Part shown: positions 1 through 46,995 of the stretch, piece after piece | Layout of the letters: each line of letters starts with the position of its first letter | Numbering within the stretch: the first letter of the stretch is position 1 | Source: a virus | Strand: one strand, 5' to 3' | Virus record (IMG/VR): IMGVR_UViG_3300030116_001948 | Coordinates: 42,799 to 89,793 of that record | Length of the DNA: 46,995 nt | Made by a program: the position numbers and the translations under genes | The notes under the pieces: model-generated | Told to the model about the DNA's origin: nothing | Databases searched by the model: none | Seen by the model: the letters and a program-made list of their open reading frames with translations, nothing else

Positions 1-1004
1 GTTTTATTTGTTCCACCGTCATTAACTCTTAATAGTAAATCGCCATCTTGTACATTGTTAGCTAAATATAAATTTGTACCACTATCTTTTTCTATAAAAC
101 TATCTGCTGTACTATTTACATTTATAACTGCGTTAGTTCCACCTGTAAGTGTTAATTGTCCACCACCGCCTATTGTTAAATTATTGCTTGAATTAATAGT
201 AACATTAGATTCACCACGAATAGAACTAGAACCATTACCTGTTAAAATTCTGTCATTAGCAAGATTACTAATACCCAAGTTAGATTCATTCCATATTTTA
301 CTCCAAGTAGCATAAGAAGTGTTTACAGTAGTAGTACCTACATACAACTCTGCATTACTACTATATCCAACAGCTATACCACCCCAACCACCACCAGAAT
401 CTCTGTTAGCAATTTTATGAAAATAAAAATATGTTGAGCCAGGATTACCATAATTTTGATTTCCACTTCTCATCATACCACCAAAACCTACTGGAAAATC
501 AGCCCAGTTTTGTTCACTTAATTGATTACCTTCTAATCCAGTTGAACCTACAGTACCTACATTACTTACATTGTCTTGCATACCATTTGAAAATGTAATT
601 TTACCAGTAGATGTATCTGCAGCATTACTTCTTAAATATTTAGGATCTGTGTGTTGTGTAATACTTGATGCTGCAATTCTTGCATCTGCAAAAGTTCCTG
701 ATGTAATCTTAGAAGCTGCTAAATTAGCTATCCTAGCTGCTGCTACTGTACCACTTGTAATTAAATTTCCACTATGATTACCTAAATTGAGTGTTACTGT
801 ACCAGATGTACCACCACCAGATAAACCAGTACCAGCTGTTACGCCTTCAATATCTCCAGAAGAAGCACTACCAATAGCAGTTATGGTGCTACCTACTTTA
901 GTATATAGTTGATTGTTAGTATAATCATATACTAATTCATATTCATCTATACTACCTGAAACAGGTGCACCATCACCTCTTTTTATTAATAACTTACTAG
1001 CCAT
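1..1004 (-). CDS. Tail fibre protein, N-terminal part (runs off the left edge)
   Basis: An open frame starts with ATG at 1004 and stays open to base 1 (334 codons, no stop), so the C-terminus is missing. The first about 48 residues (MASKLLIKRGDGAPVSG...) and residues about 245-334 nearly match the fibre gene at 43921-46848. The residues between do not match at all. The middle contains a T-G-T-V-A-A-A-R-I-type repeat and a Gly/Asn/Trp-rich stretch (GGGWGGIAVGYSS) typical of phage fibre shaft and tip domains. It follows the 271-aa gene by 9 bases. It is probably a second allele of the same fibre gene and would be expected to end in an S74 chaperone domain, which cannot be seen here. Confidence 0.85.
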   Translation of the reverse strand, partial: MASKLLIKRGDGAPVSGSIDEYELVYDYTNNQLYTKVGSTITAIGSASSGDIEGVTAGTGLSGGGTSGTVTLNLGNHSGNLITSGTVAAARIANLAASKITSGTFADARIAASSITQHTDPKYLRSNAADTSTGKITFSNGMQDNVSNVGTVGSTGLEGNQLSEQNWADFPVGFGGMMRSGNQNYGNPGSTYFYFHKIANRDSGGGWGGIAVGYSSNAELYVGTTTVNTSYATWSKIWNESNLGISNLANDRILTGNGSSSIRGESNVTINSSNNLTIGGGGQLTLTGGTNAVINVNSTADSFIEKDSGTNLYLANNVQDGDLLLRVNDGGTNK

Positions 1005-1151
1005 TATAACCTATTAGTTAGCGTATGTTCCTAGATCTATTGTAACATTTGTCATGGTAGAACTATCTATATTAGCTACTAAAGCTCCTTTAGTAAATCC
1101 ACTCATATTACCAGTGCTAGAAGCTGTTGCTGTTGTAGTTCCTAAAGTCCA
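1..1151. repeat. Left copy of a terminal near-repeat with a swapped centre
   Basis: Bases 1 to about 270 align with 46097 to about 46366, and bases 876-1151 align with 46720-46995. In the 276-base flank I count four substitutions by eye. Between the flanks the two copies are unrelated in sequence and length (about 605 bases here, about 353 in the other copy). The frame is kept in both. This is either one circular locus seen as two alleles or a tandem duplication of a fibre module. Confidence 0.85.
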
Positions 1152-1829
1152 TTTATCTGCACTTTCATCAAAGAATATTGTAGCATTATCACCTGTAGAA
1201 CCACGTTCTATAATAAGACCACAATCATTTGCATTACTTCCTGCTCCACTATTAAGTTCTAACAACGGATCACTTACTGTAGTATTAGTAGTATTTACAG
1301 TAGTTGTTGTACCACTTACTGTAAGATTACCACTAACTGTTAAATTTTGTGCAATAGTAATACTATTAGCCAATTTATCTCCAGTAACTGCGTCATTTGC
1401 AATATGTGCTGTATCAATAGAACCATCTACATACTGGTCACTATCTACAGAATTAGCTGACATATGTGCTAAATCTACAGCTCCATTTGCAATATGTTCA
1501 CTATCTACTGCATCATCTGCTAGTTTTGCCCCAGTAACTGCGTCAGCAGCTAATTCAGCTGTTGCTACTCCAAGATCTTTAATCTGTACTGCACCACTAT
1601 TTACTACAAAATTATTTGTAGAAAAAGATGCTTTACCTTTAACACTTGATGTAGCGTCAGGAAGATTCACTTCCAACTCTGTTACTGTAACTGTATTACT
1701 TGCTGTTTGTTTACCTATATATAGTTTGCCAGCAGCATTATCCCATGCCAACTCACCATACAACAAAGAAGCTGGTGCTCCAGCACTTGCACCATATACG
1801 CTCTTTTTAATCTGTAATGTACTTGCCAT
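1014..1829 (-). CDS. Repeat-rich tail fibre / fibre-adaptor protein (271 aa)
   Basis: ATG at 1829 with a good AAGGAG site. The N-terminus (MASTLQIKKSVYGASAGAPA, then LLYGELAWDN...GKLYIGK) resembles phage fibre head domains and is a distant version of the start of the downstream fibre. Residues about 85-155 hold short repeats of the form A-D-D-A-V-D-S-E-H-I-A-N-G, expected to form a fibrous beta structure. The rest is Thr/Ser/Asn-rich. A partial second copy of its 3' end lies at 46858-46995. The role as a virion fibre or its attachment piece is inferred from composition and position beside the S74 fibre. Confidence 0.8.
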   Translation of the reverse strand: MASTLQIKKSVYGASAGAPASLLYGELAWDNAAGKLYIGKQTASNTVTVTELEVNLPDATSSVKGKASFSTNNFVVNSGAVQIKDLGVATAELAADAVTGAKLADDAVDSEHIANGAVDLAHMSANSVDSDQYVDGSIDTAHIANDAVTGDKLANSITIAQNLTVSGNLTVSGTTTTVNTTNTTVSDPLLELNSGAGSNANDCGLIIERGSTGDNATIFFDESADKWTLGTTTATASSTGNMSGFTKGALVANIDSSTMTNVTIDLGTYAN

Positions 1830-1839
1830 TTATCTCTCC

Positions 1840-2097
1840 TTATGGTTGATAGCTGCCGCCATCTATTGCCTCATTTTGCAAAAGAACATCTGCGTCTTTT
1901 ACACTTATTGTTGTAGTGCCATTGCTTGTACTAGTTTCAATTCCAGTACCTGCTGCAATATTATCTGTTAATCCATCGGCAGATGTAATTTGTACGTCTG
2001 CACTACCATTGTCAATCTTTAATTGATTATTGTCATAAAAAACAATTTTTTTATACACATCTTTAATCTTGTTTGGTCCTGTTAAACTTCCACCCAT
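1840..2097 (-). CDS. Small fibre-associated virion protein (85 aa)
   Basis: ATG at 2097 overlaps the stop of the upstream gene (TAATG), so translation is probably coupled. The product is rich in Asp, Thr, Ser and Asn, with a stretch TDNIAAGTGIETSTSNGTTT like the linkers seen in tail-fibre proteins. It sits between connector-type genes and the 271-aa fibre gene, which suggests a structural role at the tail. No catalytic motif or membrane segment is visible. Confidence 0.7.
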   Translation of the reverse strand: MGGSLTGPNKIKDVYKKIVFYDNNQLKIDNGSADVQITSADGLTDNIAAGTGIETSTSNGTTTISVKDADVLLQNEAIDGGSYQP

Positions 2098-23832: not shown

Positions 23833-23885
23833 AGACGTCAAGTCGTTGGATCTTCGTTTATCTCTCTCTGCTCGGCTTGACGTCT
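23833..23885 (-). terminator. Terminator-like inverted repeat at the convergent junction
   Basis: AGACGTCAAG (23833-23842) and CTTGACGTCT (23876-23885) form a perfect 10-bp stem with a 33-base loop, spanning the last codons of the giant gene. Read leftward the stem is followed directly by TTTTT, the form of an intrinsic terminator for the late transcript. Rightward no T run follows. Confidence 0.55.
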
Positions 23886-26800
23886 GACCTTTGCCATATG
23901 CCACTTAAAGCTATTATATGGTAATCCAGTCTGATATTCCACAGCGTATTTTGGATTGTTAACAGTCTTATATACATCTCTAGCAAATCTACCACCTGGT
24001 ACATAAGTCCAAGCAGTATACTTCCAGAATGCTTCATAGTCACCATTAACCATACCATTAATGTGTGGTAATATAAATCTACTTGCTGGTGGTGTTATAA
24101 TTTGCAATGGTGCTAATGCTTGTATTGGATACTGATTAAAAAATGCTTTTTTTCTAGTTTCTTCATCGCCAAATAAAAACTCCGCAGTTTCTTTCATCCA
24201 AGACATTGGTGGTGATAATGCATATTCAAATATAGAATAAGCAAACAATGTACCTAGTGCCATTGTCATCATATCATTAGCTACTTGTCTTTGGAATCGT
24301 TTTGTAACCTCAAAGTTTGGATGACCTTCTGCTGCCATCATATCTTCAAAGATCACCTTTCTTCTACGTATACTATTCCACGCATACGGCTGAAAACGTG
24401 TCATAATACGTCCAAAAGCTGTATTACTAAAGTTAGGTCTAAATGTAGCGTGATAAATAAACTGAGACGCTTCTACGCCTTTTCTAGCACTATCTACTAA
24501 AAACTCATCTGTTACTCTTACATTTCCTTCAAGATCAGAATAAATTTCTCTAGCTTTTAAATAATGTGCTAAGAATGCTTTACGTCTCAAATGTTTTTCA
24601 GTAGAAGACATAAAGAAACTACCTTTATCCATTACTGCTTTATTAACGTTATATTTTTTAGCTAACTCACCTACAGTAGTATTAACGTATTTATTAATTT
24701 TATCGTTTACTTCTTTACTATTACCATATAGTTTTTCAGCTCTAGTATGTGCAGTAACTTTCTTTACTAATTCTTTTAAAAACTTTTTAGCCTGCACAGG
24801 TTCATTTGCTTGTATATATGCCAACTCTTGTAATAGATTACCTTCAAGTAATCCTAATGAATCAATCATTTCATGTATATCTTCTCTATTACGTAGTTCT
24901 CTAAATTCAAACTTACCTGTTTGTTTATTAAATAATTTAAACTTTTGACCAGCAAATACTTCTTTAATTAAATAATTAGTGTCTCCTGATTTAAAGAAAT
25001 GATCAAACCCTGTATCAGTAATAATGTTTTGATAACCACCATAGATATTTGTAATAGCTGCTTTAGGACTAAACAATAATGATAACAATTCAAATCTACC
25101 TTCAAGATCAGAAATATACTGTGCACGATCTACTAATGCTTTATGTCTAGCTTGTACATTGTCTGGTAATGACGGAAATAGTTTCTTCCCTGTAATACCA
25201 CCATATACTTTAGATATTCTATTTTCTAGTTTTAATCCTAGATTACCAACACTTTCATCACTAAACCATTGTCTTGGTGTATTATTAATATTGAGTTTGT
25301 CTATATTTTCATCTTTAATAAACTCGTTAAGATTCTTAATAGTTTGTGTTTCTAAATATTTAGCAAACTGTTTCTTAACATTTTCATACATTTTTTGTTT
25401 TAAGTTTGCCATTTCTACTATTATTTCTTCTTTACGCTGCTCACTTTTAACAGTTTTTAATTCTTTACGTAATGCATTTAATTTATTACCATTAGTAGAC
25501 TTATACGCTCTAACAATTAATTCACGTTTTTTCATACGTTGTTCACTAGTAGTAGGTATTGATTGCTGCTCTAGATCATATAATAGTTTTTTACTTACTA
25601 CATCTAGCTTACCAACTTTCCATTCTTGGTCAAAGTTTGCTTTTTGCCAATCTTTTAATAGTTGCATTTCTTTAGCTGTAACACCGTGTACTTCTAATAC
25701 TCTTGTTGAAGGGAAACCCATATACCCTCTAGTAAAATCAATCATTGTAGCGTGCCATTTTTCAGCGTTTTCACGCATACGTGGATTCTGTTTAGATTGT
25801 GTTAAAAACTTATCTAAATAAATTCTACTATACATAGCACCAATGTTTTGCATTAAACCTCTACTTAAACTATTCATATAGTCTAATGGTACATTACCAT
25901 CACTTCTCCAACCAGGCATAGAACGTTCTAAACGTGAACGTGCGTGTGTTGTAGTACCCATACCAGGATAAGGATTCTTACCTTTTCTAGTGCTAATCTG
26001 ATTTAACATGTCCATAGCTTCTGGATCTATATATGGATTCTCATACTTGTTTTGCTCAAGAACTTTATTCTCAAGTCTTTGGTATTCTAATTCTTTTGCT
26101 TCCTTAAATGTAATTAATCTATCTCTAACATCTTCTGCAAGCTTAGCATCAGTAAGCTGCTTGTAGTTTGTTTTAGCCATAATACGTTCTTTTTCAGTTG
26201 GTAGCCATTCTTCTTGAATAAACTTTCTATTAAGTTTTGTATCCATTTGTCCCATTTGTGGAAAGAATCTATCAGATACACCATCTTCTGCAAACTTACC
26301 AACTTCACTTGACCATTCACCATACTTACCACTAAATGCTCTAATGTCTCTACGAACTTTGTCAGCCATACTAATAGTTTTCTTACCTTCTTTTATTTTT
26401 GTTCTACCTAATGCATTCCAATCTAACGAACCGTTGTTGTTTACATAGTCAGAATACTTATCAAGAATGTGATCACGTAGATTCAAATGAAACTTAATCC
26501 ATACCATATCATCGTAATGGAAGTGATTCTTTTGTACATCAAACCCAGTTTGTTTATCTGCTTGTAATCGAACAGTTTTATCAAACCATAACAATCTACG
26601 TACTTCAATTAATCCGTGTTTGTTTAAAAACAATTGTGCCATACGTTGTTGCCAATACTTTGGATGACCTTCTGGTAATGTAGTATTAGAAAAAAACTCT
26701 AATGGAAATGTAGTTTGCTGCTCAAATAATTTACCAATGTTTTTATAATTACTCTTAATCATACTATTTAAAGAGTATTCCATAATAGGTTGTATTACTT

Positions 26801-29800
26801 CAGTTCTAATTATATCAGCATACTCTAAAGGTTCTACGTATACACGATCACCTTTTGAGTTAGTATAATAAAATTTTTGGTTGATTTTTTTAATTTCAGA
26901 TTCTGCTTTTTCTAAACGTTTAATTAAATCTACCTGCTCTTCAGCAGTTGTTTGACCTTTCTTTGGTCCAAGATTATCTTCACCCAATGTATGTTTTACT
27001 GCTGCGTATTCCCACAATGCATTACCGTGATCTTTATAACCTTTCTGAGATTCGTTTAATACTTTTTTTACTAATCCAATATACTTAGTATTAAAGTCTG
27101 ATAGCTGATTAGCATTTACGTGTAAACGATATATTGTTTCTGCTACAGTCTTTAACGTAGATGTAGGTACAGTAATACCATACTCTTCCATTTGACCAGT
27201 CTTTTCGTTGAATTTTAATACTCTATCAAATTGTAAACGTTGTTCAAACGGTGCTAGTTCTTTATTAAGTCTTTGATAAATACCAAGCACTTGGTCTAAT
27301 TTTTTAGGATCACGCAAGTGTGCTCTACTAGGATTTAATGCATTAATTTCATTGGTAATTAACTCAGATAATCTAAAAGGTTCTAGTTCTTGTATATATG
27401 GATACTTATTGTTTTTCTTTTCAAAACTTTCTCTGCTTTTATACTTTTGTATTTTTTGTGTTTTTTCATTGTATCCATAAATAATAGTATCAGAATCTTT
27501 TAATATCTTAGCCTCAGTTTTATCTGCAACTTCATTTACTAATTTAGAATTACCCTTAGCCCAGCTATCTACATACACTTTGTATTGCTGTGATATATTC
27601 ATAAACTCTTCTTTTGTATTTTCTTTAGCACGTTTTTTATAGAACTCATCAAAAGTATCTAACGGTATATCTTTAGTAATATCAGCTTTTAGAGTGTTTT
27701 CAGCTTCTTGTAACAACTCTTTATTACGTTTAATTTTTGTTAACACATCTTCTTTACCATACTTATTATTCATCATCTTCATAAAAAATCCAAAACGAGT
27801 ACCATCTATATTTTGTATAAAGTCTGATGTTCTATCAATACGTTTTAAGAAAAATGAATACTCACTTGGTAAATTAAACAATAGCTTTTCATTACCAACT
27901 GCAGTCTGTGAATAAATTAAATTTTTAAACTCATTTAAATTTTCTTTTAGTAGTGGCGTCTGTGATTTCTTTAATGGTTTTAAACTATCTATCAAAGCAT
28001 CTAACTTAGCTGGATCTGTAAGAACATCTAAATCGATTAAATCGGGAACCATTTTTTTTGTTTTGAGTACAACTTCTTGACCAGGTTTTGCATCTACTTT
28101 AGATTGCCTACCTTTTGGTGGTACATTCAAATCGTCCATTATAACTTCTTCAAACTTATCTAACTCTAATTCTTGACGTAATTTATCAATACGTTGTTGT
28201 CTAGATTCTTGTGATAGCTTCAATGTTTCATATCTAGCTTTAGACATATACTCTTTATTTCTAGCACGTATTGCCCAAGTCTGTTCACGATCAGGTAACT
28301 GTCCAGTAAATTCAGCTTGTAAAGAACCTCTAAGTGCGTATAGCCCTTCTAATCTATTTGATTTGTTAAAAAACTCACCAAGTTTTTCTTTTTGTTCTTT
28401 CTCTTTTAATAGTTCATTAATTCTACTATTTACTCTTCTTAAAAACTCAAAACGATTCTCACCTCTAAATCCTACAAAGTCTGATTTAATTAATGGTGTT
28501 GCTATATAAAATACATCAAACAAATCTTCTACTCTATTAAATGCTTCTTCTGGTAATGGTTTACCTTCTTCTTTTCTTCTATTAGATAACTGTTCTAACT
28601 GTTCTCTAAGTATTATTTTAGTGTAAGCTATTTGATCACCGTAAGAACGTCTGTTATGTTTTTTGAAATACTTTTGGTCGTTCGTAAATGATTGGTATAA
28701 TCTATTACGCTGCTCAAATGTAAGCTCTACTACTTGTGTAATAAAATCATCTACAGACTCACTAGTCATTTCTAATTCTTTCATTGCATATTGTTTAAAG
28801 TCATTAGACTTTTTTAATGCAGAAGACAAATCAATAACCTGATTTAGTTTATTCCATAAAAATGTTTCATATTCTACAATGTTATCAAACTCTTTAGGGT
28901 TTAATCCTTTCATAAAATGTTCTGAAAAATCTTTTATACCTACTTTACGATATATTGGATGACTAATAATTTGTTCAGAAATATCTTTTAACAATGCTAC
29001 GCTTTGCTCTTTACTAAATCTATTCCAAGGATTTAACTCCAAACGTAATCCAATGTATTGATCTGCAATCAATCCTAAATATGATTTAGCATCTTGTGTT
29101 TTTTCAAGGTAATGTGTAGCAGTTTCTTGAACATCTAAAGGCATATCTGTTTTACGTCTACTACCAAATACAAGTTTATGCATATTTTTAATAGCTTGTC
29201 TACGTGCTTCCATTTCACCAGTCTCAGCACCTTCATACATCCATTCATATCTAGCACGCATTTTACGTAACGCAACAATAGGTAAATCTATATTAGACAA
29301 ATCTGCAGCGTCAATGTATGTATTCAACATAACATTTCTATCAATAATTAATTCATTAAATGCATTTAAATAATTATCACGCATTTTACCTTTTGTTTTA
29401 ACATCTGTACGTGGCGTATTGTCTTCGAGCTGTCTATTAATATCTAACTCTAATGCAATCTGATTAACACCATTAGTAATTAAACCAATAGAATCTTGAG
29501 ACATAGTTGATATTTTACCATTTCTTAACTTAGCTCTTGTATCTAATATGTCTGCTAAATGTTGTTTTTTTCCTTTACTTTCTGATGGTTCTGCATTTGC
29601 TAATTCTCTACCACGTTCTGGATCTTTCAAGTCTACTGTATCTTTTTTACCATTCTTTCTACGAACTAATTGGTCTTGTATAAAAGATTGTTTATATGCA
29701 GTAGTTAATTCTTTTGGCAATCCCCAGAACATATGTGCAGAGTCAATATCTTTATCAGCACCAGACATCATAAAATCATTATATTCGTTGGTAATTAATG

Positions 29801-32800
29801 AAATACCTTCACGTGTCTTAGCAAATCCAACAAACTCTCCTATACGAAAACCACCATTACTAATCATAGGTGAACGTATAAATCCTACGTTTTTACGTAC
29901 AAAATCATATTCTTCAAAGTCACGCTGTGCTCTTTTTGTTGTAGGATTCTCTTTCATTTCTACCCAAGTATCCCAAAACTTACCAAGTGTCATTGTTTTT
30001 TCGTTTTTCTTACCTTCGTATACAGTAACCTCTATAACATCTCTTGCACCCTCATTCATCATAAATTCGTTGTTTGCTAGACCTTTCTTAGCTTTAGAGT
30101 ACTTTTGCTTACGTCCACTAATTAAAACGTCATATAAGCCCAATTTAGAGCTATATGAGTGCCTAATACGTGGTCTAGTAAGTCTTTTAGCTACATATTG
30201 CTTAACTCTTTCATTAATATATTCTCTAACGCCAGGTCTTAAATATGTACCAGGATCAAAATTTGTATCAATTAAATAATCTTCTACTAGTTGTCTATTG
30301 TATGTATTAGTTCTATAATCAGTCCATTCTTGCATCGCTTGTTTATCAAAATCAGATAAACGTTCTATTTCTAAAATTTGTTTAATAATACTTTGTGCTG
30401 CTTTACTATCAGGTCTTTCAAATAATATTTGATCTAGTAGCTTAATGCTTATATCGTCTATCCTACCTGATAATTCTTTGTTGCCTAAGTATTCTTTTTC
30501 AGCTAATGCTGTAGCTTTAGGATCACCAGCTGCTGCTTTAGAAACTAATTCTTCCCATTTATTCCAATAATCTCTACCTACTTTGGTATTTGGGTCCATT
30601 TCAAATGTGTTTATATTAGACATAACCTGCTGCAATAGTTTTTGATTACCTATCTTTTCAAAGTTTTCATACACATTTAAATTCAAATAGTTATCTTCTA
30701 TTTTAGATTTAAATACATTCAACTTACCAACCAGCTCAAACTCTTTGGTTTTTTCATTCCAACGTACTTTTGTTGGTTCTACTCCAGTCATTTCTTTAAT
30801 ACCAGAAACGTAATGTATTTTATCTAAATTGTGTTTTTCTGCAAATGCTTGCCAATAACTATCCATTTTAAAATCAGCTGTTTTATTAATAATCTGTCCA
30901 CGAACACCGTACTCTGGTCTAAATAATCCCAACGTTTTAAACACGCCTGTACGAGGATCATATCCATAATTATCTTTTACAATTTCAAATAACTTTTGAT
31001 GTGTCATAGTTACACCATCTGTACCTGAATTGTTTTCTTTCAATGCTTTACCCATATTTTTTACGCTACTTGGTAAATCTTCTATAACGATATGGTTAAA
31101 TGTATCTCCTTCAAATCGTGAAAATCTACTCATAGATATTTGACTTAAAGGTTCATATTCTGGTATAGCTCCTAACTTGGCAAATCCTATATCATTAAAT
31201 TTATCTTGTAAACGATAAGTACCAGATTCAATACTTTCTAAAACTTTTTTATTGTGTGCCTCAACACGTTGTATTAACTCTGGATTATCTTTAGCAAACT
31301 GTTCATACAAATCATTGTTAGCTTTACTAGAACGTTTACCATACAAAGTAATATAAGTATTCTCAAATATTGGTGTCATATCAATATCTGTATAACGCTT
31401 GTCATTTAAAAATCTTTCTATTACTAAAGGATCTAGAGATAATTTAATATCAGTAAAATTCTTAGGATTGAATACGTCCATATCTACTTGACGTGTTCTT
31501 GTTAAGTTTTTGTATCCAGCAAAGTATTCTGGATTTAATGCTATTTCAATACCAGAATGATGTTTAGTACGTTTCTGGAATTTAGTTACACTTTCATACG
31601 GTTCTGTTTTTACCCACTCACGTATTAAATCTTTAGTAGGAATTTCACCTAATCTAATTAATCCTGTTTCTTGCATACGCCACATTAATGTAGCAATATT
31701 ACTTTTATATCTACCTTTAGTAACTGGTATCTTTAATTCATTAATTAAAAAGTTATTTAATGCTTTAATATCTTTTAACTTTGTGCCTCTTGCCCAAGGA
31801 TATGCTCTGACTTGTATTCTACCAGTCTCACCATTAGCAGCGTAAATAAATGCACCTTCTTTTTCTAGCTGCTTAGCCATATTATTTAACTGTTTATCAG
31901 TCATATGTTCTGCTAATTGCAATGGTCTAATACGATTACCTTTGCTATCTGTTTTACCTTCAGGTATATATCTAAAAATATCTACAGATAACGGTGCAAC
32001 ATTTTTGACTCTTGGTCTATTCTTGTATGAATTAGATGCGTAATCCCAATAACGTTCTAAAATACGTGCAGTTAAATACTCGTAATCATAATGTAATGTA
32101 TTACCCTCTTTGACACTAAAATTGTTATTTTTATTTACACGACTAGAACCATGTGTAGGATTACCAGCTTTACTACCACCAATAGGTTTATCATAAGAAT
32201 CTGTTTCAGGTGCCTCTTTTTCTAATGTAGGTTCTAGATTTTTATCTTTTGATAATGCACCTTCTCCTACAATGTAAATTCTAGCAATAGGAAAACGATC
32301 TATTTCTTTTAAATAATGCGCAGTTTGTATTAACTCTCTTTTTTGTTTATCACTTACAGTAATTCTATATTTACCAGATACTTCTTTAACAAAAGCGTTA
32401 ATATCATAGTTTACATCATCAATAGTTTTTTTAAACATATTGTGTAGATCTTGCACACTAGCGTCTTTGTTTCTACGCTTTACATCTATAAAAATATTTT
32501 TCAATGATTTTTGTTTCGGTAAATGTTCAGACAACGGATCAACTTCTTGTACTTGATACTCAATAGTTCTACCGTCTTCTAATGTAATAGAATCTAATCT
32601 AAATTTTTTCTTTTCAATATCTTTAGCAACTTGCTCTGTATCGCCTATTTGGTTTTCTGTACGATTAGCTATAATGCTTTCTTCTATTTCAGCCTTTTGT
32701 TTATCTAAAGCATCGTACATTTCTCCTAGTATTTTCTCTTTAGCTTTACGATCTGTTTTAGCTTTCTGCTCCATTTCAGAGGTAATAATACCTTTTTCTT

Positions 32801-34172
32801 TTAACTCTTTATATGTTTCTGCATATGCTAATATAATATCGTTGTATTGATTTACAGTATAATCTATCTGCTGTTGTTGTATATTTTTTAAATATCTACT
32901 CCAGTATGCTTGATACTCAGGACTTTCATTTTGATACCAAGGTTGTTCAGTAAGCCAGTTTCTAGCTTTTTTCATATTGTAATCTCTTGGTATTGCATTC
33001 ATAGAATTATAAATATCTCTTGTAGCTCTATTTTCAAATGATGCTCTACTATTTACACTAAAGAATGCAGCCATTAATGTTTCATATATTTGGTCTTCTA
33101 ATGGTAAATCGTTTAACTCAGAAGTAACAGTACCATAAGAAACACCTGCACCACCACGCATAATAAAGTTAATGGTATTATATTGATCTATTCTATTAGG
33201 TTGCGTTCCTAATGCTTTAGCAAATCCACGAACTACTCTTTCTCCAGAACCACGAACTACTGCGTTACTACTACCTAACATTCTACCAATACTTACATAC
33301 TCACCAATAGTACCAAATATACTACCTGCTACGGCACCATGTACACCAGCCATAGCCATTCCTTTAAATCCTTCACCTCTAGTACCATAAGGTTGTGCAG
33401 ACATAGCCATTAGCAAACTTAAGTGTATAGATTGATTTACAATATTTTCTACTGCTGCTTTATCTATATACTTGCTTTTGAGTATACCTTTGTTCATATA
33501 CTCTAAAATTCTTACGTTATTGTTATGTAAACCTTTTGTAGCTTGTTTCTGTATAAAGTTAGCTGCTAATCCAGGTATAGATACTACACCATATAGTTTT
33601 TGTCCAGTAGCAGGATCAATACCTGTTGGTGTAGGTGATGCTAATTTTGTAGCTCTAGCAAACCTATCCATAGCTTTTTGTATTTTTAGATTACTGTTTT
33701 GCCAATCTTGAGATTTGAGTTCTATACGTTCTGCTACTTTTTCTAAACGTTTGTTGCCGCTTTTCTTAGCTTTTTCTTTCAGTCCACGACTTACGACACC
33801 AGCAGCAGCTCTACCACCAGTAATAGTTGATACTACTAAACTTGGTGCTAATCCAATCAAATGTCCTATGTTATTAGCAATACGTTCTGTAGATGTGTCA
33901 GGTGTATCTGCAAAACCAAAAGTTGTAAAACCTTCAATCAATCCAGATACGGTCTGTGCTAAAACTCCGTCACTACGCCCTTGTCTACCTTCCGTAAGGG
34001 GTAAGCCTGCCTCATTGATTTTAGTCTCCATAAAACGTAAACTACGGGTGTCAAATGACGTAGGAGAACGGTCATAGAATGATTTAAGTCCTCTTGCAAA
34101 CTGAAATTCATCTATTCTACCGCCTTCAAGTTCTTTTTGAAGTAGCGTTATTCTGTTATCTAGTTTAAACAT
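23838..34172 (-). CDS. Giant internal virion / ejection-type protein (3444 aa)
   Basis: ATG at 34172 directly abuts the stop of the 407-aa gene; no frameshift in over 10 kb. It takes more than a fifth of the window. Hydrophobic stretches occur near residues 100-120 (NIGHLIGLAPSLVVSTITGG), 270-295 (MAMAGVHGAVAGSIFGTIG) and about 3299-3319 (NDMMTMALGTLFAYSIFEYA); the rest is charged, mostly helical. Around 1050-1128 is a distinct block with SGTDGVT, GVFKTLG, NKTADFK and YVSGIKEM. It is the last gene of a proposed ejection set (162, 407, 3444 aa), like gp14-gp15-gp16 of T7-type phages but far larger. A tape measure of this length would imply an implausibly long tail. Enzymatic activities are possible but none is clear. 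Confidence 0.85.
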   Translation of the reverse strand: MFKLDNRITLLQKELEGGRIDEFQFARGLKSFYDRSPTSFDTRSLRFMETKINEAGLPLTEGRQGRSDGVLAQTVSGLIEGFTTFGFADTPDTSTERIANNIGHLIGLAPSLVVSTITGGRAAAGVVSRGLKEKAKKSGNKRLEKVAERIELKSQDWQNSNLKIQKAMDRFARATKLASPTPTGIDPATGQKLYGVVSIPGLAANFIQKQATKGLHNNNVRILEYMNKGILKSKYIDKAAVENIVNQSIHLSLLMAMSAQPYGTRGEGFKGMAMAGVHGAVAGSIFGTIGEYVSIGRMLGSSNAVVRGSGERVVRGFAKALGTQPNRIDQYNTINFIMRGGAGVSYGTVTSELNDLPLEDQIYETLMAAFFSVNSRASFENRATRDIYNSMNAIPRDYNMKKARNWLTEQPWYQNESPEYQAYWSRYLKNIQQQQIDYTVNQYNDIILAYAETYKELKEKGIITSEMEQKAKTDRKAKEKILGEMYDALDKQKAEIEESIIANRTENQIGDTEQVAKDIEKKKFRLDSITLEDGRTIEYQVQEVDPLSEHLPKQKSLKNIFIDVKRRNKDASVQDLHNMFKKTIDDVNYDINAFVKEVSGKYRITVSDKQKRELIQTAHYLKEIDRFPIARIYIVGEGALSKDKNLEPTLEKEAPETDSYDKPIGGSKAGNPTHGSSRVNKNNNFSVKEGNTLHYDYEYLTARILERYWDYASNSYKNRPRVKNVAPLSVDIFRYIPEGKTDSKGNRIRPLQLAEHMTDKQLNNMAKQLEKEGAFIYAANGETGRIQVRAYPWARGTKLKDIKALNNFLINELKIPVTKGRYKSNIATLMWRMQETGLIRLGEIPTKDLIREWVKTEPYESVTKFQKRTKHHSGIEIALNPEYFAGYKNLTRTRQVDMDVFNPKNFTDIKLSLDPLVIERFLNDKRYTDIDMTPIFENTYITLYGKRSSKANNDLYEQFAKDNPELIQRVEAHNKKVLESIESGTYRLQDKFNDIGFAKLGAIPEYEPLSQISMSRFSRFEGDTFNHIVIEDLPSSVKNMGKALKENNSGTDGVTMTHQKLFEIVKDNYGYDPRTGVFKTLGLFRPEYGVRGQIINKTADFKMDSYWQAFAEKHNLDKIHYVSGIKEMTGVEPTKVRWNEKTKEFELVGKLNVFKSKIEDNYLNLNVYENFEKIGNQKLLQQVMSNINTFEMDPNTKVGRDYWNKWEELVSKAAAGDPKATALAEKEYLGNKELSGRIDDISIKLLDQILFERPDSKAAQSIIKQILEIERLSDFDKQAMQEWTDYRTNTYNRQLVEDYLIDTNFDPGTYLRPGVREYINERVKQYVAKRLTRPRIRHSYSSKLGLYDVLISGRKQKYSKAKKGLANNEFMMNEGARDVIEVTVYEGKKNEKTMTLGKFWDTWVEMKENPTTKRAQRDFEEYDFVRKNVGFIRSPMISNGGFRIGEFVGFAKTREGISLITNEYNDFMMSGADKDIDSAHMFWGLPKELTTAYKQSFIQDQLVRRKNGKKDTVDLKDPERGRELANAEPSESKGKKQHLADILDTRAKLRNGKISTMSQDSIGLITNGVNQIALELDINRQLEDNTPRTDVKTKGKMRDNYLNAFNELIIDRNVMLNTYIDAADLSNIDLPIVALRKMRARYEWMYEGAETGEMEARRQAIKNMHKLVFGSRRKTDMPLDVQETATHYLEKTQDAKSYLGLIADQYIGLRLELNPWNRFSKEQSVALLKDISEQIISHPIYRKVGIKDFSEHFMKGLNPKEFDNIVEYETFLWNKLNQVIDLSSALKKSNDFKQYAMKELEMTSESVDDFITQVVELTFEQRNRLYQSFTNDQKYFKKHNRRSYGDQIAYTKIILREQLEQLSNRRKEEGKPLPEEAFNRVEDLFDVFYIATPLIKSDFVGFRGENRFEFLRRVNSRINELLKEKEQKEKLGEFFNKSNRLEGLYALRGSLQAEFTGQLPDREQTWAIRARNKEYMSKARYETLKLSQESRQQRIDKLRQELELDKFEEVIMDDLNVPPKGRQSKVDAKPGQEVVLKTKKMVPDLIDLDVLTDPAKLDALIDSLKPLKKSQTPLLKENLNEFKNLIYSQTAVGNEKLLFNLPSEYSFFLKRIDRTSDFIQNIDGTRFGFFMKMMNNKYGKEDVLTKIKRNKELLQEAENTLKADITKDIPLDTFDEFYKKRAKENTKEEFMNISQQYKVYVDSWAKGNSKLVNEVADKTEAKILKDSDTIIYGYNEKTQKIQKYKSRESFEKKNNKYPYIQELEPFRLSELITNEINALNPSRAHLRDPKKLDQVLGIYQRLNKELAPFEQRLQFDRVLKFNEKTGQMEEYGITVPTSTLKTVAETIYRLHVNANQLSDFNTKYIGLVKKVLNESQKGYKDHGNALWEYAAVKHTLGEDNLGPKKGQTTAEEQVDLIKRLEKAESEIKKINQKFYYTNSKGDRVYVEPLEYADIIRTEVIQPIMEYSLNSMIKSNYKNIGKLFEQQTTFPLEFFSNTTLPEGHPKYWQQRMAQLFLNKHGLIEVRRLLWFDKTVRLQADKQTGFDVQKNHFHYDDMVWIKFHLNLRDHILDKYSDYVNNNGSLDWNALGRTKIKEGKKTISMADKVRRDIRAFSGKYGEWSSEVGKFAEDGVSDRFFPQMGQMDTKLNRKFIQEEWLPTEKERIMAKTNYKQLTDAKLAEDVRDRLITFKEAKELEYQRLENKVLEQNKYENPYIDPEAMDMLNQISTRKGKNPYPGMGTTTHARSRLERSMPGWRSDGNVPLDYMNSLSRGLMQNIGAMYSRIYLDKFLTQSKQNPRMRENAEKWHATMIDFTRGYMGFPSTRVLEVHGVTAKEMQLLKDWQKANFDQEWKVGKLDVVSKKLLYDLEQQSIPTTSEQRMKKRELIVRAYKSTNGNKLNALRKELKTVKSEQRKEEIIVEMANLKQKMYENVKKQFAKYLETQTIKNLNEFIKDENIDKLNINNTPRQWFSDESVGNLGLKLENRISKVYGGITGKKLFPSLPDNVQARHKALVDRAQYISDLEGRFELLSLLFSPKAAITNIYGGYQNIITDTGFDHFFKSGDTNYLIKEVFAGQKFKLFNKQTGKFEFRELRNREDIHEMIDSLGLLEGNLLQELAYIQANEPVQAKKFLKELVKKVTAHTRAEKLYGNSKEVNDKINKYVNTTVGELAKKYNVNKAVMDKGSFFMSSTEKHLRRKAFLAHYLKAREIYSDLEGNVRVTDEFLVDSARKGVEASQFIYHATFRPNFSNTAFGRIMTRFQPYAWNSIRRRKVIFEDMMAAEGHPNFEVTKRFQRQVANDMMTMALGTLFAYSIFEYALSPPMSWMKETAEFLFGDEETRKKAFFNQYPIQALAPLQIITPPASRFILPHINGMVNGDYEAFWKYTAWTYVPGGRFARDVYKTVNNPKYAVEYQTGLPYNSFKWHMAKVRRQAEQREINEDPTT

Positions 34173-35884: not shown

Positions 35885-36096
35885 TACTTTACCTCCTCTT
35901 GGTTGCCAAATGGTTTAAATTCTAAATTAGGAGAAATAGCCTTTAACCAATTTAATTCTTTAAAATATGGTGCATACTCTTTTGACATCTCTCTTTTTAA
36001 AGAATCTAATTCATCCATTTGTTGTATAAAAACATCATCTTCCTGCTTCGGTTGTTCAGCAGGTTGCACCATTTCTTTATTCATTTCTTCAGCCAT
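35884..36096 (-). CDS. Small acidic virion-region protein (70 aa)
   Basis: ATG at 36096 with AAAGGAGATAGATA upstream; TAATG coupling to the next gene. Sequence MAEEMNKEMVQPAEQPKQED, then DELDSLKREMSKEYAPYFKE and LNWLKAISPNLEF. Acidic and helical; perhaps a chaperone or minor component for the ejection proteins that follow. Not recognised. Confidence 0.55.
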   Translation of the reverse strand: MAEEMNKEMVQPAEQPKQEDDVFIQQMDELDSLKREMSKEYAPYFKELNWLKAISPNLEFKPFGNQEEVK

Positions 36097-36592
36097 TATC
36101 TATCTCCTTTAATCTTTTTATTGCTGTTACAAAATCTTCTACACGTACTGGTGTTTGTTTATACCAACGTGAATGTCTACCCGAATCCTTGTCTGCATAC
36201 ATTATTTCATCAATAGCACGATCATATTCTTTATGACATAAACATTTCCAAGCAGTCGGAAACTTCTTAGTCCAACTTCTACCTAACTGATAATTAACAG
36301 ATGTTAATGCTATAACAATATGTTCATCGTCTGTAGATAGTATACTAGCTTGTTTTTTAGCTGCTTGTAAAGCAGTGGTTATATCTTCCATATACCATTC
36401 TTTAATCTTGTAGTCATCTACTTCAGTTCCAACAGGGAAATCTTCCTGTTCTTGTTTTGTAAGTAAATGCCCAATACCACAAGTAGGTTTATTTAATGTA
36501 TCAAGATATACTTCGTTTTTATATCCTTCACGAAGTTTCATATGTTCATACAATTTTTCTTCAAATGTTTTTTTATTTATTGCCAAAGCCAT
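36089..36592 (-). CDS. Endolysin, T4-like lysozyme (GH24, 167 aa)
   Basis: Cleaves peptidoglycan glycan strands at the end of infection or at entry. The start chosen is ATG at 36592 (MALAINKKTFEEKLYEHMK) with GGGAG upstream; an in-frame ATG at 36628 has no ribosome site and lies deeper in the upstream gene. Catalytic residues keep T4 lysozyme spacing: E22 (LREG), D31 (YLDT), T37 (PTCGIGH). The later part has SVNYQLGRSWTKKFPTAWKC. No signal peptide, so release would need a holin, unless it is carried in the virion; its place among virion genes allows either. Confidence 0.88.
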   Translation of the reverse strand: MALAINKKTFEEKLYEHMKLREGYKNEVYLDTLNKPTCGIGHLLTKQEQEDFPVGTEVDDYKIKEWYMEDITTALQAAKKQASILSTDDEHIVIALTSVNYQLGRSWTKKFPTAWKCLCHKEYDRAIDEIMYADKDSGRHSRWYKQTPVRVEDFVTAIKRLKEIDNG

Positions 36593-37478
36593 ATCCAAAT
36601 CTTGCTCCCATATAGTTTCTAGTAACATTATTTACTGCTTGTCTATTATTCATATAAAAATCGTACATATTATTAAAATAACCCATTCCTTGCATAAATA
36701 TATTTCTATTTACAAAATCATCATTTGTATTAGGTTGAGTCATAGCTTGAGTGCTAACAACTGGCGGTTGTTGACCCATTACTGGACCAGGAGTAACGCT
36801 ATTTTGTTGATTAATAACATTAGGACTTATCATTCCTCTTCCCATAAATCCACCAGGCATTACTGGAGCTTGTGGATTGTACTGATTAATTAATCCAGTA
36901 GGATTTTGATATGTATTAAAACCTTGAGATGTAAACATATTTCCTACATTTACAGTAGGAGTATTTTGAACCGTTCTACCTTCATTGTCTATTGAATAGT
37001 CTTTCATGCCATTTAAATAAAAAGCTCTCAGCTTTATTCTGTCTTGAAAGTTTTTCATTTTTCTTTCACCAAGATTTTGACCATCTATAATTATATCATC
37101 TCCAGCTTGAAATTGACGTAAAGATCTTTGAGTAGGTTGTCTAAGAGTTTGTCTAATATATCTTCTAAAGTTTCCATAACCTCTTTTTTCATCGTCTGGC
37201 AAAGCGTTCCATTCAGCTCTTTTTGCTTTTCTTTGAGAAAACATTTCTTTTAAACCTTCAAATCCTTCCTGCAATCCTTCTTGTATAGCAGGAATAGTTT
37301 CTGCTACTTGCCCACCTACTCTAGCACCCATAATCATACTAGGTATATAAAATAACGCTTTACCTAATGCACTATCTTGAAACTCTCTTCGTTCTGCTAA
37401 ATTGCCTTCACCAATACGCAGCATTGTATCGCCAACAACACTATTAGGTGTTACTCTTTCATCACTACCATTTGCCAT
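36573..37478 (-). CDS. Asn/Gln/Pro-rich virion-region protein (301 aa)
   Basis: The ATG at 37478 (MANGSDERVTPNSVVGDTML) has GGAGGAAGTATA upstream and overlaps the preceding stop, so it is preferred over an ATG ten codons upstream. A short hydrophobic part (KALFYIPSMIMGARVGG) is followed by a basic helix region (RRYIRQTLRQPTQRSLRQFQ). Residues about 185-300 are Asn/Gln/Pro/Gly/Met-rich and probably extended. It overlaps the lysozyme start by 20 bases. Likely an internal virion protein, unproven. Confidence 0.6.
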   Translation of the reverse strand: MANGSDERVTPNSVVGDTMLRIGEGNLAERREFQDSALGKALFYIPSMIMGARVGGQVAETIPAIQEGLQEGFEGLKEMFSQRKAKRAEWNALPDDEKRGYGNFRRYIRQTLRQPTQRSLRQFQAGDDIIIDGQNLGERKMKNFQDRIKLRAFYLNGMKDYSIDNEGRTVQNTPTVNVGNMFTSQGFNTYQNPTGLINQYNPQAPVMPGGFMGRGMISPNVINQQNSVTPGPVMGQQPPVVSTQAMTQPNTNDDFVNRNIFMQGMGYFNNMYDFYMNNRQAVNNVTRNYMGARFGYGFGNK

Positions 37479-38276: not shown

Positions 38277-38564
38277 TTACCATTTTACTTTATGCGACCA
38301 ATATCTAGCACTTAATTTGCTTGGTTTAGCATCTTGTGCATTGTGTCTAGCATAATATGATTTACGTCTTGCTTTATCTTTTTTACTCTTTGGATTTTTA
38401 CCAGCTCCTCTTACGCCTTGCTGTCCAAATCTTATTAACTTTGTTTTATCTCCAACTTTAGCTACCACTACGTGTGATTTCTTAGGATGATTAGGTGTTC
38501 TTTTAGGTTTATTATAACCAGACACACCTGCTCTTGCTAGTTTAGGATCTTTCTTCTTAGCCAT
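38277..38564 (-). CDS. Basic conserved phage protein (95 aa)
   Basis: ATG at 38564 (TAATG). Sequence has SGYNKPKRTPNHPKKSHVVV, then DKTKLIRFGQQGVRGAGKNP and a C-terminus ARYWSHKVKW. The HP-KSHVV-A ... IRFGQQGV-GAG order is a pattern I know from phage proteins of unknown function with a short beta domain flanked by basic tails. It may bind nucleic acid. Confidence applies to the gene, not the role. Confidence 0.65.
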   Translation of the reverse strand: MAKKKDPKLARAGVSGYNKPKRTPNHPKKSHVVVAKVGDKTKLIRFGQQGVRGAGKNPKSKKDKARRKSYYARHNAQDAKPSKLSARYWSHKVKW

Positions 38565-41312: not shown

Positions 41313-41442
41313 TTCTAGTTACGTCCATCATTGTCTTTAACTTCTTTACTTTTTTCTTTTTAGCAGTAAAATTATACTTTCTTCTGCTGTTATTTGTAGA
41401 AGTGCCTTTTACACTATCTGATATGGTATTACTTGTTTCCAT
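41284..41442 (-). CDS. Small basic protein (52 aa)
   Basis: ATG at 41442, inside the end of the metallophosphoesterase gene; it overlaps the start of the large tail gene by 29 bases. Sequence METSNTISDSVKGTSTNNSR then TAKKKKVKKLKTMMDVTRNA. Ser/Thr/Asn-rich first third, lysine-rich second. It exactly fills the gap between two genes, and its character fits the other basic miniproteins. Confidence 0.5.
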   Translation of the reverse strand: METSNTISDSVKGTSTNNSRRKYNFTAKKKKVKKLKTMMDVTRNAKKDIKYK

Positions 41443-42196
41443 CTATTACTTCACCCCACACAGTTGTCTTACCGTCAATTATCTCTACAATTTCTACTTT
41501 GAACTCACCATTTGTAAACCAATCTACAATTGCAAATGCGTGTGCCCAATTATGTAATCTACCACGTAGCCACTTATTATCTTCGTGTGACATATTCTTC
41601 AAACATCCTAAAGACCAAGCTGCTATATTACCACCTAGCTTTGTCTGTGTATGTCTTTGAAGATCGTGCGTATGTCCATACATTACATTCTCTCCATACG
41701 TTTCTAAATGTTTCTTTGCATGATACGTTGTTGCAAACGCACCGTGAAAGAAAGCTAACTTACCTACCTGGATAGGCAAGTTATACTCCGTATATTTATA
41801 TCCTCTTTCTTTTATTTTACACGCTTTAAAAAAAGTGTAATCAGAAAGGTAAGGATATTTATTAGCAAAATTATCCAACCAGAGATCGTGGTTACCTTGG
41901 AGTAAATACTTTTCTTTACATCCCACTTTTTTAAGCACTTCATCCCACTCATCCAGTCCATTGTTTACTAACCTTATTTCTTCATCTACTAATGGAAGTT
42001 GAAACTCAAGTGGTGGTAATTTCTTATCTTTATATCTCCAGGCAGATACAGAATCCCACTCCCCCACATCACCAAGATTTACAAACACTTTTGGTTTTAT
42101 TTTCAGTATTGCTTTTTTAACACACTCTACTGCAGCTCTATCTTCTAATGGATAATGCTGGTCTGGTATTACGATACCACGTTTTTTAAGTTTCAA
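41429..42196 (-). CDS. Calcineurin-like metallophosphoesterase, TTG start (255 aa)
   Basis: TTG at 42196 with GGGGG five bases upstream; no ATG fits. The full two-metal motif set is present: D12-x-H14 (IPDQHYP), G42-D43 (NLGDVGEWD), G101-N-H-D104 (LLQGNHDLW), H151-G (FFHGAF) and G174-H-T-H177 (YGHTHDLQ). The enzyme should hydrolyse phosphodiesters or phosphomonoesters; substrate unknown (nucleic acid, cyclic nucleotides or others). It lies in the late block between lysis-type genes and the tail hub, not with replication, so nucleotide recycling or countering a host signal late in infection are possibilities. Confidence 0.88.
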   Translation of the reverse strand: MKLKKRGIVIPDQHYPLEDRAAVECVKKAILKIKPKVFVNLGDVGEWDSVSAWRYKDKKLPPLEFQLPLVDEEIRLVNNGLDEWDEVLKKVGCKEKYLLQGNHDLWLDNFANKYPYLSDYTFFKACKIKERGYKYTEYNLPIQVGKLAFFHGAFATTYHAKKHLETYGENVMYGHTHDLQRHTQTKLGGNIAAWSLGCLKNMSHEDNKWLRGRLHNWAHAFAIVDWFTNGEFKVEIVEIIDGKTTVWGEVIDGNK

Positions 42197-42625: not shown

Positions 42626-43006
42626 CTATTTTATCTGTTTTTTGATTTTATCAAAAACTTCTCTTTCGTCGAATCTCATTGATATACCTGGCTCATATCT
42701 TTCAATTTCTTTGCCTTCTTTAAGAATAATAATAGTAGGTACAACCTTAATATTCCATTCTTTTTGAATAACTGCACCTATAGCTTTATTCGTTAAATCT
42801 ATTTCTGCTACATAACAAAGATCTGCTAACTTTTCTACTTTAACTCTATTGTTATAGTTCCATGCAGCATTTACTTGTACTACAGCACATTTTTGTATAT
42901 TCAATGCTTGTATCTCTTGAAAACTATCCAAAGATACTGATTGCGATAATAGCGATGATGTAAAGAGTCCAAGACCCAATAACCACGTATTTATCCATTT
43001 TTTCAT
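42626..43006 (-). CDS. Exported thioredoxin-fold protein lacking the CxxC motif (126 aa)
   Basis: The ATG at 43006 with GAGG upstream gives MKKWINTWLLGLGLFTSSLL, a clear signal peptide or membrane anchor (cleavage perhaps after LLSQS). The mature part has thioredoxin features: a strand-turn VVQVNAAWNYNNRVKVEKLA where the WCxxC site would be, ICYVAEIDLTN-like strand, and NIKVVPTIIILKEGKEIERY with the cis-Pro of VPT. The CxxC is replaced by WNYNN, so redox activity is unlikely. It probably acts in the periplasm as a chaperone, binding protein or superinfection factor; inference. Confidence 0.65.
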   Translation of the reverse strand: MKKWINTWLLGLGLFTSSLLSQSVSLDSFQEIQALNIQKCAVVQVNAAWNYNNRVKVEKLADLCYVAEIDLTNKAIGAVIQKEWNIKVVPTIIILKEGKEIERYEPGISMRFDEREVFDKIKKQIK

Positions 43007-43018
43007 AATCAAACCTCA

Positions 43019-43315
43019 TTATTTATTATTCATATCTATAAGTGTTTGAGTAATAGCTTTTGTGTCTTCTTTAATATCATCTACTTTCTCTTCTAACTTA
43101 TCTACTTTATTTTCAGTATTTAATATAGAATCACGAATCATTTGATCTTTCAAATCATACTCCATACGTGAAACCTCAGGCTCTGGTAATTCTTTAGCAA
43201 GTTCTATTTCTGCTTGTAAAGAATACCACATACCTATAATCATACCTATAGTAACTACGATACTAATACCTGTTTCTACAGATAATGTAAATTTAGTGTC
43301 TTTACCTACTTCCAT
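43019..43315 (-). CDS. Holin-like membrane protein with coiled-coil tail (98 aa)
   Basis: ATG at 43315. Sequence MEVGKDTKFTLSVETGISIV with a single membrane segment at about residues 12-32 (VETGISIVVTIGMIIGMWYS), then a long charged coiled coil (TENKVDKLEEKVDDIKEDTK). One-span proteins with this layout are common next to lysis genes and are sometimes called holins or inner-membrane spanins. The lysozyme lies 6.5 kb away, so this is the best but not certain holin candidate. Confidence 0.55.
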   Translation of the reverse strand: MEVGKDTKFTLSVETGISIVVTIGMIIGMWYSLQAEIELAKELPEPEVSRMEYDLKDQMIRDSILNTENKVDKLEEKVDDIKEDTKAITQTLIDMNNK

Positions 43316-43331
43316 TATTATCCCCTATTGT

Positions 43332-43679
43332 TTATCTACCTGGTCCACCACCGCCACCACCAATGTCAGCGTGTTGCCCACCAAAGGTGTGACTCATATT
43401 AAAAGGTGCTGATCCTATATTGTTTAATAAAGTAGCATCAGGATTATCTATTGATGTACTTTGTATAGGATTGTTTGTACCACCTAATCTATTAAATGTA
43501 TCTGCTGGTCCACTATCATCGTTGTTAGGAAAGGTATTTTGTATTCCATTAAAAGAATCTCCGCTACATAAACTAGACAAACTTATGTCTGTACTTTGTT
43601 GTACGCCTGTAGCTTCTCCTAAAGCACTACCTATTGCACTTAGACCTACATTACTTGTTCCTACTGCTGGACCTGCCAT
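43332..43679 (-). CDS. Low-complexity glycine/asparagine-rich protein (115 aa)
   Basis: ATG at 43679. Sequence MAGPAVGTSNVGLSAIGSAL, then SLSSLCSGDSFNGIQNTFPN and a C-terminus HTFGGQHADIGGGGGGPGR. Ser/Gly/Asn/Thr-rich, little predicted order, six glycines in a row near the end. Probably a virion accessory attached to the fibre or tail; function unknown. Confidence 0.55.
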   Translation of the reverse strand: MAGPAVGTSNVGLSAIGSALGEATGVQQSTDISLSSLCSGDSFNGIQNTFPNNDDSGPADTFNRLGGTNNPIQSTSIDNPDATLLNNIGSAPFNMSHTFGGQHADIGGGGGGPGR

Positions 43680-43682
43680 TTA

Positions 43683-43928
43683 CTACTCAGCGTCTTTAAT
43701 TGCTTTATATTCTACTAATTCAGCTTCTACTTCTGCTAACGATGCTTCTAAACTTGCTTTTTGAGCTTCTGCGTCTGCTATAGCAGTATCAACATCTTTA
43801 GTTTCTTCATAATCCATAACAGTAACATCGTTACCATTTGCATTTTGCATAACTCTAGTATGTTTAATTGACACCATTTTTGTTGATGCAGATGTTTCTT
43901 CTGACATTGCACTTATTACTTTAGCCAT
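43683..43928 (-). CDS. Small helical protein after the fibre gene (81 aa)
   Basis: ATG at 43928 overlaps the fibre stop by 8 bases. First half VISAMSEETSASTKMVSIKH then a beta stretch (HTRVMQNANGNDVTVMDYEE), second half an acidic Ala/Glu helix (AIADAEAQKASLEASLAEVE). May be a fibre chaperone or a structural accessory, inferred from position only. Confidence 0.55.
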   Translation of the reverse strand: MAKVISAMSEETSASTKMVSIKHTRVMQNANGNDVTVMDYEETKDVDTAIADAEAQKASLEASLAEVEAELVEYKAIKDAE

Positions 43929-46848: not shown

Positions 46849-46995
46849 TATAATCTATTAGTTAGCGTATGTTCCTAGATCTATTGTAACATTTGTCATG
46901 GTAGAATTATCTATATTAGCTACTAAAGCTCCTTTAGTAAATCCACTCATATTACCAGTGCTAGAAGCTGTTGCTGTTGTAGTTCCTAAAGTCCA
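46097..46995. repeat. Right copy of the terminal near-repeat with a swapped centre
   Basis: 46097 to about 46366 aligns with 1 to about 270, and 46720-46995 aligns with 876-1151. The centre (about 46367-46719) encodes LDGINSTSFLRSDAADTATG and a DLDNDNDSDQSEFKFRYKTG-type segment that is absent from the left copy. Same reading frame in both copies. Confidence 0.85.
46858..46995 (-). CDS. C-terminal end of a second copy of the 271-aa fibre protein (partial)
   Basis: The frame enters from the right edge and ends at TAA (46858-46860), giving 45 residues that start WTLGTTTATASSTGNMSG and end TNVTIDLGTYAN. It equals the end of the 1014-1829 protein except for one substitution (N for S, in ANIDNST). 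Its spacing to the fibre start at 46848 is the same as in the left copy. Confidence 0.85.
   Translation of the reverse strand, partial: WTLGTTTATASSTGNMSGFTKGALVANIDNSTMTNVTIDLGTYAN

Follow-up and report, generated by a model that had tools for sequence, protein, structure and literature searches.

Two versions of a tail fibre gene at the ends of one viral contig probably stem from a chimeric assembly of two related marine phages

Several cases of tail fibre modules moving between phages have been reported. In Litunavirus, recombination is concentrated in the fibre gene and an adjacent small gene, and the fibre domains, the pyocin knob included, follow separate paths (PMC9786124). Among the Alteromonas phages, distantly related members share host-recognition modules, with knob domains similar to R-pyocin fibres (PMC10579305). 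Concerning sequence records, the authors of CheckV described concatemers made by assemblers in IMG/VR (PMC8116208). The locus analysed here lies in a stretch of 46,995 nucleotides (the window, to which all unprefixed positions refer), bases 42799-89793 of the 89,793-base IMG/VR record IMGVR_UViG_3300030116_001948, which carries the start of the same tail fibre gene at both ends (1-1151 and 46097-46995). An initial annotation read this pair as two alleles coexisting in one population of a 46-kb circular genome, or as a tandem duplication. With a probability of about 0.9, the end-to-end pair is instead the product of a chimeric assembly of two distinct, related marine phages, A and B, whose fibre flanks were recently shared by recombination.

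Both copies are minus-strand ORFs beginning MASKLLIKRGDGAPVSGSIDEYELVYDYTNNQLYTKVGSTITA, as the initial annotation had described; they split after about residue 45-48 and rejoin in a common block (1-272 and about 46097-46368), and together they form the strongest direct repeat in the window, far beyond chance. The flanks had been called almost identical, which is true of the inner one, where 866-1151 and 46710-46995 differ at 6 of 286 positions (869, 875, 915, 939, 1010 and 1063; 98% identity), four of them within 876-1151, matching the four differences in 276 bases counted earlier; the other flank (1-273 versus 46097-46369) contains 27 differences and is 90% identical. The right copy is the complete 975-residue fibre gene of phage B (43921-46848, minus strand), with PHROG tail fibre matches and a Peptidase_S74 domain. 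The left copy (1-1004, minus strand) proved not to be a whole gene: it holds the first 334 of the 890 residues of the A fibre, is cut at base 1 by a scaffold gap of 10 Ns, and continues across it into phage A. In these fibres an anchor (residues 1-45) precedes the exchangeable cassette; a shaft block follows, then a variable distal part and an S74 intramolecular chaperone. The anchor (870-1004, minus strand) is common to both phages, with 44 of 45 residues (98%) and all 18 fourfold sites identical, and 41 bases of it are present exactly in a third phage, L174. The common shaft block occupies 45868-46368 in B (minus strand, residues 161-327) and, by alignment to it, begins in A at residues 245-334 (1-272, minus strand); A residues 245-411 and B residues 161-327 are 94% identical in amino acids and 91.8% in nucleotides, with 51 of 56 fourfold sites identical. 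The fibres also differ beyond the cassette, with 25% identity between A residues 412-770 and B residues 328-860 and 63% between the S74 tips; in B the chaperone lies at residues 878-931 (44056-44217, minus strand; PF13884, E 1.6e-15). A host-range switch of the inversion type was considered and rejected, as no inverted repeats were found near the fibre.

Between anchor and shaft, phage A carries cassette alpha (273-869, minus strand, residues 46-244) and phage B cassette beta (46369-46713, minus strand, residues 46-160), in keeping with the lengths of about 600 and 350 bases first estimated. The two had been described as unrelated, and overall they are indeed not alignable; both nevertheless hold the motif LRS(N/D)AADT(S/A)TG, 48 nt at 77% identity. 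Comparison of the two centres with related fibres, which the initial annotation had proposed, located the alpha core, a module of about 99 residues (285-581, minus strand), at other positions of other fibres in L049 and L089-L091 (66-77% identical in L049, L089 and L091), and beta in the fibre of L097, at 71% identity. A 30-base stretch of beta has no exact copy elsewhere in IMG/VR. The alpha core gave no Pfam match; a profile search returned R1 and R2 pyocin fibres as top matches at E 0.11, and a fold search placed an R-pyocin fibre first (probability 0.90, E 0.16) from a low-confidence model with a pLDDT of 50, so that the core is possibly a domain of the pyocin-knob type.

The composition of the record points to two genomes. 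Record bases 42789-42798, directly preceding window base 1, are the ten Ns, and bases 1-42788 do not repeat phage B of the window; they belong to a related and different phage, A, whose alignable DNA is for the most part 65-81% identical to that of the window, reaching at least 91% only near the fibre locus. Phage A was met alone in a separate assembly, IMGVR_UViG_3300030451_001371 (44,033 bases, no Ns), in which the alpha-bearing fibre is complete at 890 aa. This record matches bases 2-42788 of the longer one over 42,787 bases with 0 mismatches, has 31 bases where the longer one shows the 10 Ns, and is identical to window 1-1161 at all 1161 positions (42873-44033). The absence of mismatches suggests that both A-bearing assemblies share a sample or source, and hence that they are separate as assemblies, perhaps not as samples. 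The record of A ends at the equivalent of window position 1161 and starts at that of 1867, with 92% identity to the window there. A separate record of phage B was not found in the IMG/VR searches, from which near records may be missing. Terminal redundancy was rejected as a candidate, neither the window nor phage A having an exact terminal repeat. Two MCPs and two terminases occur in the 89,793-base record only, each of the 14 other records tested having one of each, and syntenic relatives carry one fibre after g271. We therefore give almost no credence to a molecule of about 90 kb in which both phages are truly joined as a cointegrate, or to a fibre gene duplicated in tandem within B: the layout of the record speaks for these readings, but A is found alone, its own record ends at g271 and does not run into B, and relatives of 41-54 kb, together with one of 69.5 kb, have a single MCP and a single terminase, with a single fibre following g271 wherever the locus is present. 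Copy numbers and the separate A record led us to reject both, and what IMG/VR lists as an 89.8-kb "virus" is a pair of phages, about 45 and 46 kb in size.

The two backbones have diverged strongly. Amino acid identity between A and B is 90% for the MCP, 82% for the terminase, 71% for the portal, 54% for the helicase and 47% for a large structural protein, and many early genes have no counterpart; A and B are not one species. At fourfold sites, 98 of 105 (93%) are identical in anchor, shaft and g85, versus 253 of 510 (50%) for the backbone genes portal, terminase, helicase and g38832 taken together (Fisher p 6e-19). Two genes near the distal end of the fibre (43019-43679) also show high fourfold identity, 83-87%, and the MCP is intermediate at 71%. 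Judged from these sites, the exchange of the fibre neighbourhood is far more recent than the parting of the A and B backbones. The modular exchange of fibre parts put forward in the initial annotation is thus supported, with recently shared flanks on strongly diverged backbones and cassettes that recur in other fibres. That the copies are two alleles of one phage population is highly improbable: the 98% identity of the inner flank speaks for it, but the left copy matches at 100% the fibre of A, a separate phage that is represented by a 44-kb record and whose terminase, portal and helicase differ from those of B to the extent given above, and the two versions do not sit on the same backbone, alpha being found on backbone A and beta on backbone B.

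The place where the contig passes from A to B can be narrowed. Adjoining the fibre is g271 (1014-1829, minus strand), a fibre-like virion protein (phrog_892 tail fibre, E 2.6e-13), of which a truncated second copy of the C-terminus lies at 46858-46995 (minus strand), at B's end of the break, identical to 1014-1151 at 137 of 138 positions. Beyond g271 lies g85 (1840-2097, minus strand), exchanged together with the fibre anchor, in which 77 of 77 residues and 29 of 31 fourfold sites are identical between A and B. The final A/B difference on the fibre side is at 1063, and the next positions at which the window departs from A are 1879 and 1900, leaving 1064-1878 as the interval of the switch; identical runs cover 1064-1151 (at least 88 bases, in g271) and 1901-2010 (110 bases, in g85). 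On these comparisons, the switch would lie in g271 or just upstream of its start, and A and B may be identical across the rest of g271, for which A lacks the equivalents of 1162-1866. The right end of B lies 88 bases past 1063, A's own record ends 98 bases past it, and the A piece of the 89,793-base record starts 90 bases before 2011, so that the switch and the loose ends all fall in stretches identical between A and B; this near-constant distance of the loose ends from the nearest difference (88-98 bases) is expected at a shared-word branch of the assembly graph.

The chimeric assembly probably arose as follows. Recombination recently made anchor, shaft block, g271 and g85 common to the two phages, the cassette and the distal part remaining different, and an assembler using words shorter than the A/B identical runs would merge A and B there. 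The contig would then enter from A's fibre and exit into B, with B's own fibre left as a loose right end; B would own about 1879-46995, the first 1.1 kb or so (the fibre start and the end of g271) would belong to A, and the other 42.8 kb of A would precede the window within the same record. Homologous recombination on the conserved flanks may in turn swap exposed fibre parts and change receptor recognition, as fibre biology would suggest. The earlier idea that coexisting variants brought the assembly to a halt was right in spirit, the stop being where two phages become identical, although the variants are two phages. One feature does not fit so easily: a symmetric repeat should break an assembly on both sides, and here the assembler passed through one, which leaves room for a real recombinant. 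Such a phage, a B backbone that acquired the first part of the A fibre together with the end of g271, would be present beside A and B in the sample. In its favour, alpha and B are joined in the contig with no gap between them, the flanks have enough sequence in common to allow homologous recombination, and the fibre of L090 pairs an alpha-type core with a tip much like that of B; nonetheless, both the scaffold link and the separate record connect alpha with the distal fibre and the genome of A, no sequence was found that joins alpha to B's distal fibre, and the break positions are shaped as expected of graph branches, which makes this reading decidedly unlikely. The broader proposal that co-occurring species often trade anchor, shaft, g271 and g85 as a unit, the join representing real recombinant molecules of B backbone and A fibre start, is also unlikely. 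The common flanks and the unlike cassettes themselves are real, a case of ordinary tail fibre mosaicism, of a known kind, in an uncultured marine group.

For a comparison of this locus, 80 MCP relatives were drawn from IMG/VR. The gene order MCP ... g92, g142, g98, g85, g271, fibre is kept where the locus is present. Relatives whose MCP identity is 76% or higher fall into two classes by g271, with 80-95% or 27-43% identity to that of the window, regardless of MCP identity; relatives carry discrete g271 types on unrelated backbones, and three further contigs, L093, L174 and L175, share g271 at 95% or more with flanks that are otherwise different. Contig ends 3-9 kb from the MCP numbered 48 per 150 at-risk kb on the fibre side and 32 per 229 at-risk kb on the opposite side, a roughly twofold difference per kb, with p 3.5e-5 serving as a guide only, the loci having been picked by MCP similarity and some being near duplicates. 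L014 (69,528 bases) and L015 (53,709 bases), from two samples, give equal match statistics over the MCP-to-fibre region; they are probably one phage assembled to different lengths, and each has a single MCP and a single terminase. In the phage collection, the terminase is at most about 26% identical to those of named relatives among the matches listed, an 826-aa protein has no match, and neither a cultured relative nor a host was found. The MCP search of bacterial and archaeal genomes gave one match only (L262:7971-9395, 70%), on a 14-kb contig in a Euryarchaeota MAG that may be a stray viral contig or a hint of the host; a host call from this single contig was rejected as too weak.

Other genes of the window were recorded alongside. 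An ORF of 3444 residues (23838-34172) has no Pfam match, and its 3182-residue counterpart in A is 28% identical over 1191 residues despite the 82-90% identity of MCP and terminase. A small basic protein (SGYNKPKRTPNHP...) is encoded at 38277-38564 and at L252:1248-1544; its place varies, being far from the fibre in B and, in A, within an insertion of roughly 1 kb between g142 and g98, where several relatives also have extra sequence. A phage lysozyme domain (36089-36628, E 8e-8) and a weak metallophosphoesterase match (41429-42196) were also seen.

The correction of this record bears on the size and gene content of the genome and on any claim of a phage with two fibres. Fibre neighbourhoods exchanged between species are the longest identical stretches that these phages share, and for this reason it is precisely at the genes for host recognition that assemblies break off or cross from one phage to another; with contig ends commoner on the fibre side in this group, genes for host range are lost or wrongly joined more often than any other part. 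As in the concatemers reported with CheckV (PMC8116208), two phage genome equivalents were joined in one contig by the assembler; CheckV, however, uses word frequencies or long duplicated segments to detect a genome that occurs more than once, whereas here the genomes are different, and two genomes at about 70% identity would probably escape its filter, so that similar mixed records may exist in IMG/VR. As in Litunavirus (PMC9786124), recombination affects the fibre and its neighbour, and domains have separate paths; unlike those cultured Pseudomonas phages, the present group is uncultured, its exchange was met by way of a chimeric assembly, and the exchanged stretch takes in the neighbours g271 and g85. 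The Alteromonas phages (PMC10579305) are likewise marine, with fibre modules common to divergent backbones; there, whole modules and a separate chaperone are shared between families, whereas in the present case the members of one group have anchor and shaft in common, the S74 chaperone is part of the fibre itself, and the cassette in between is replaced.
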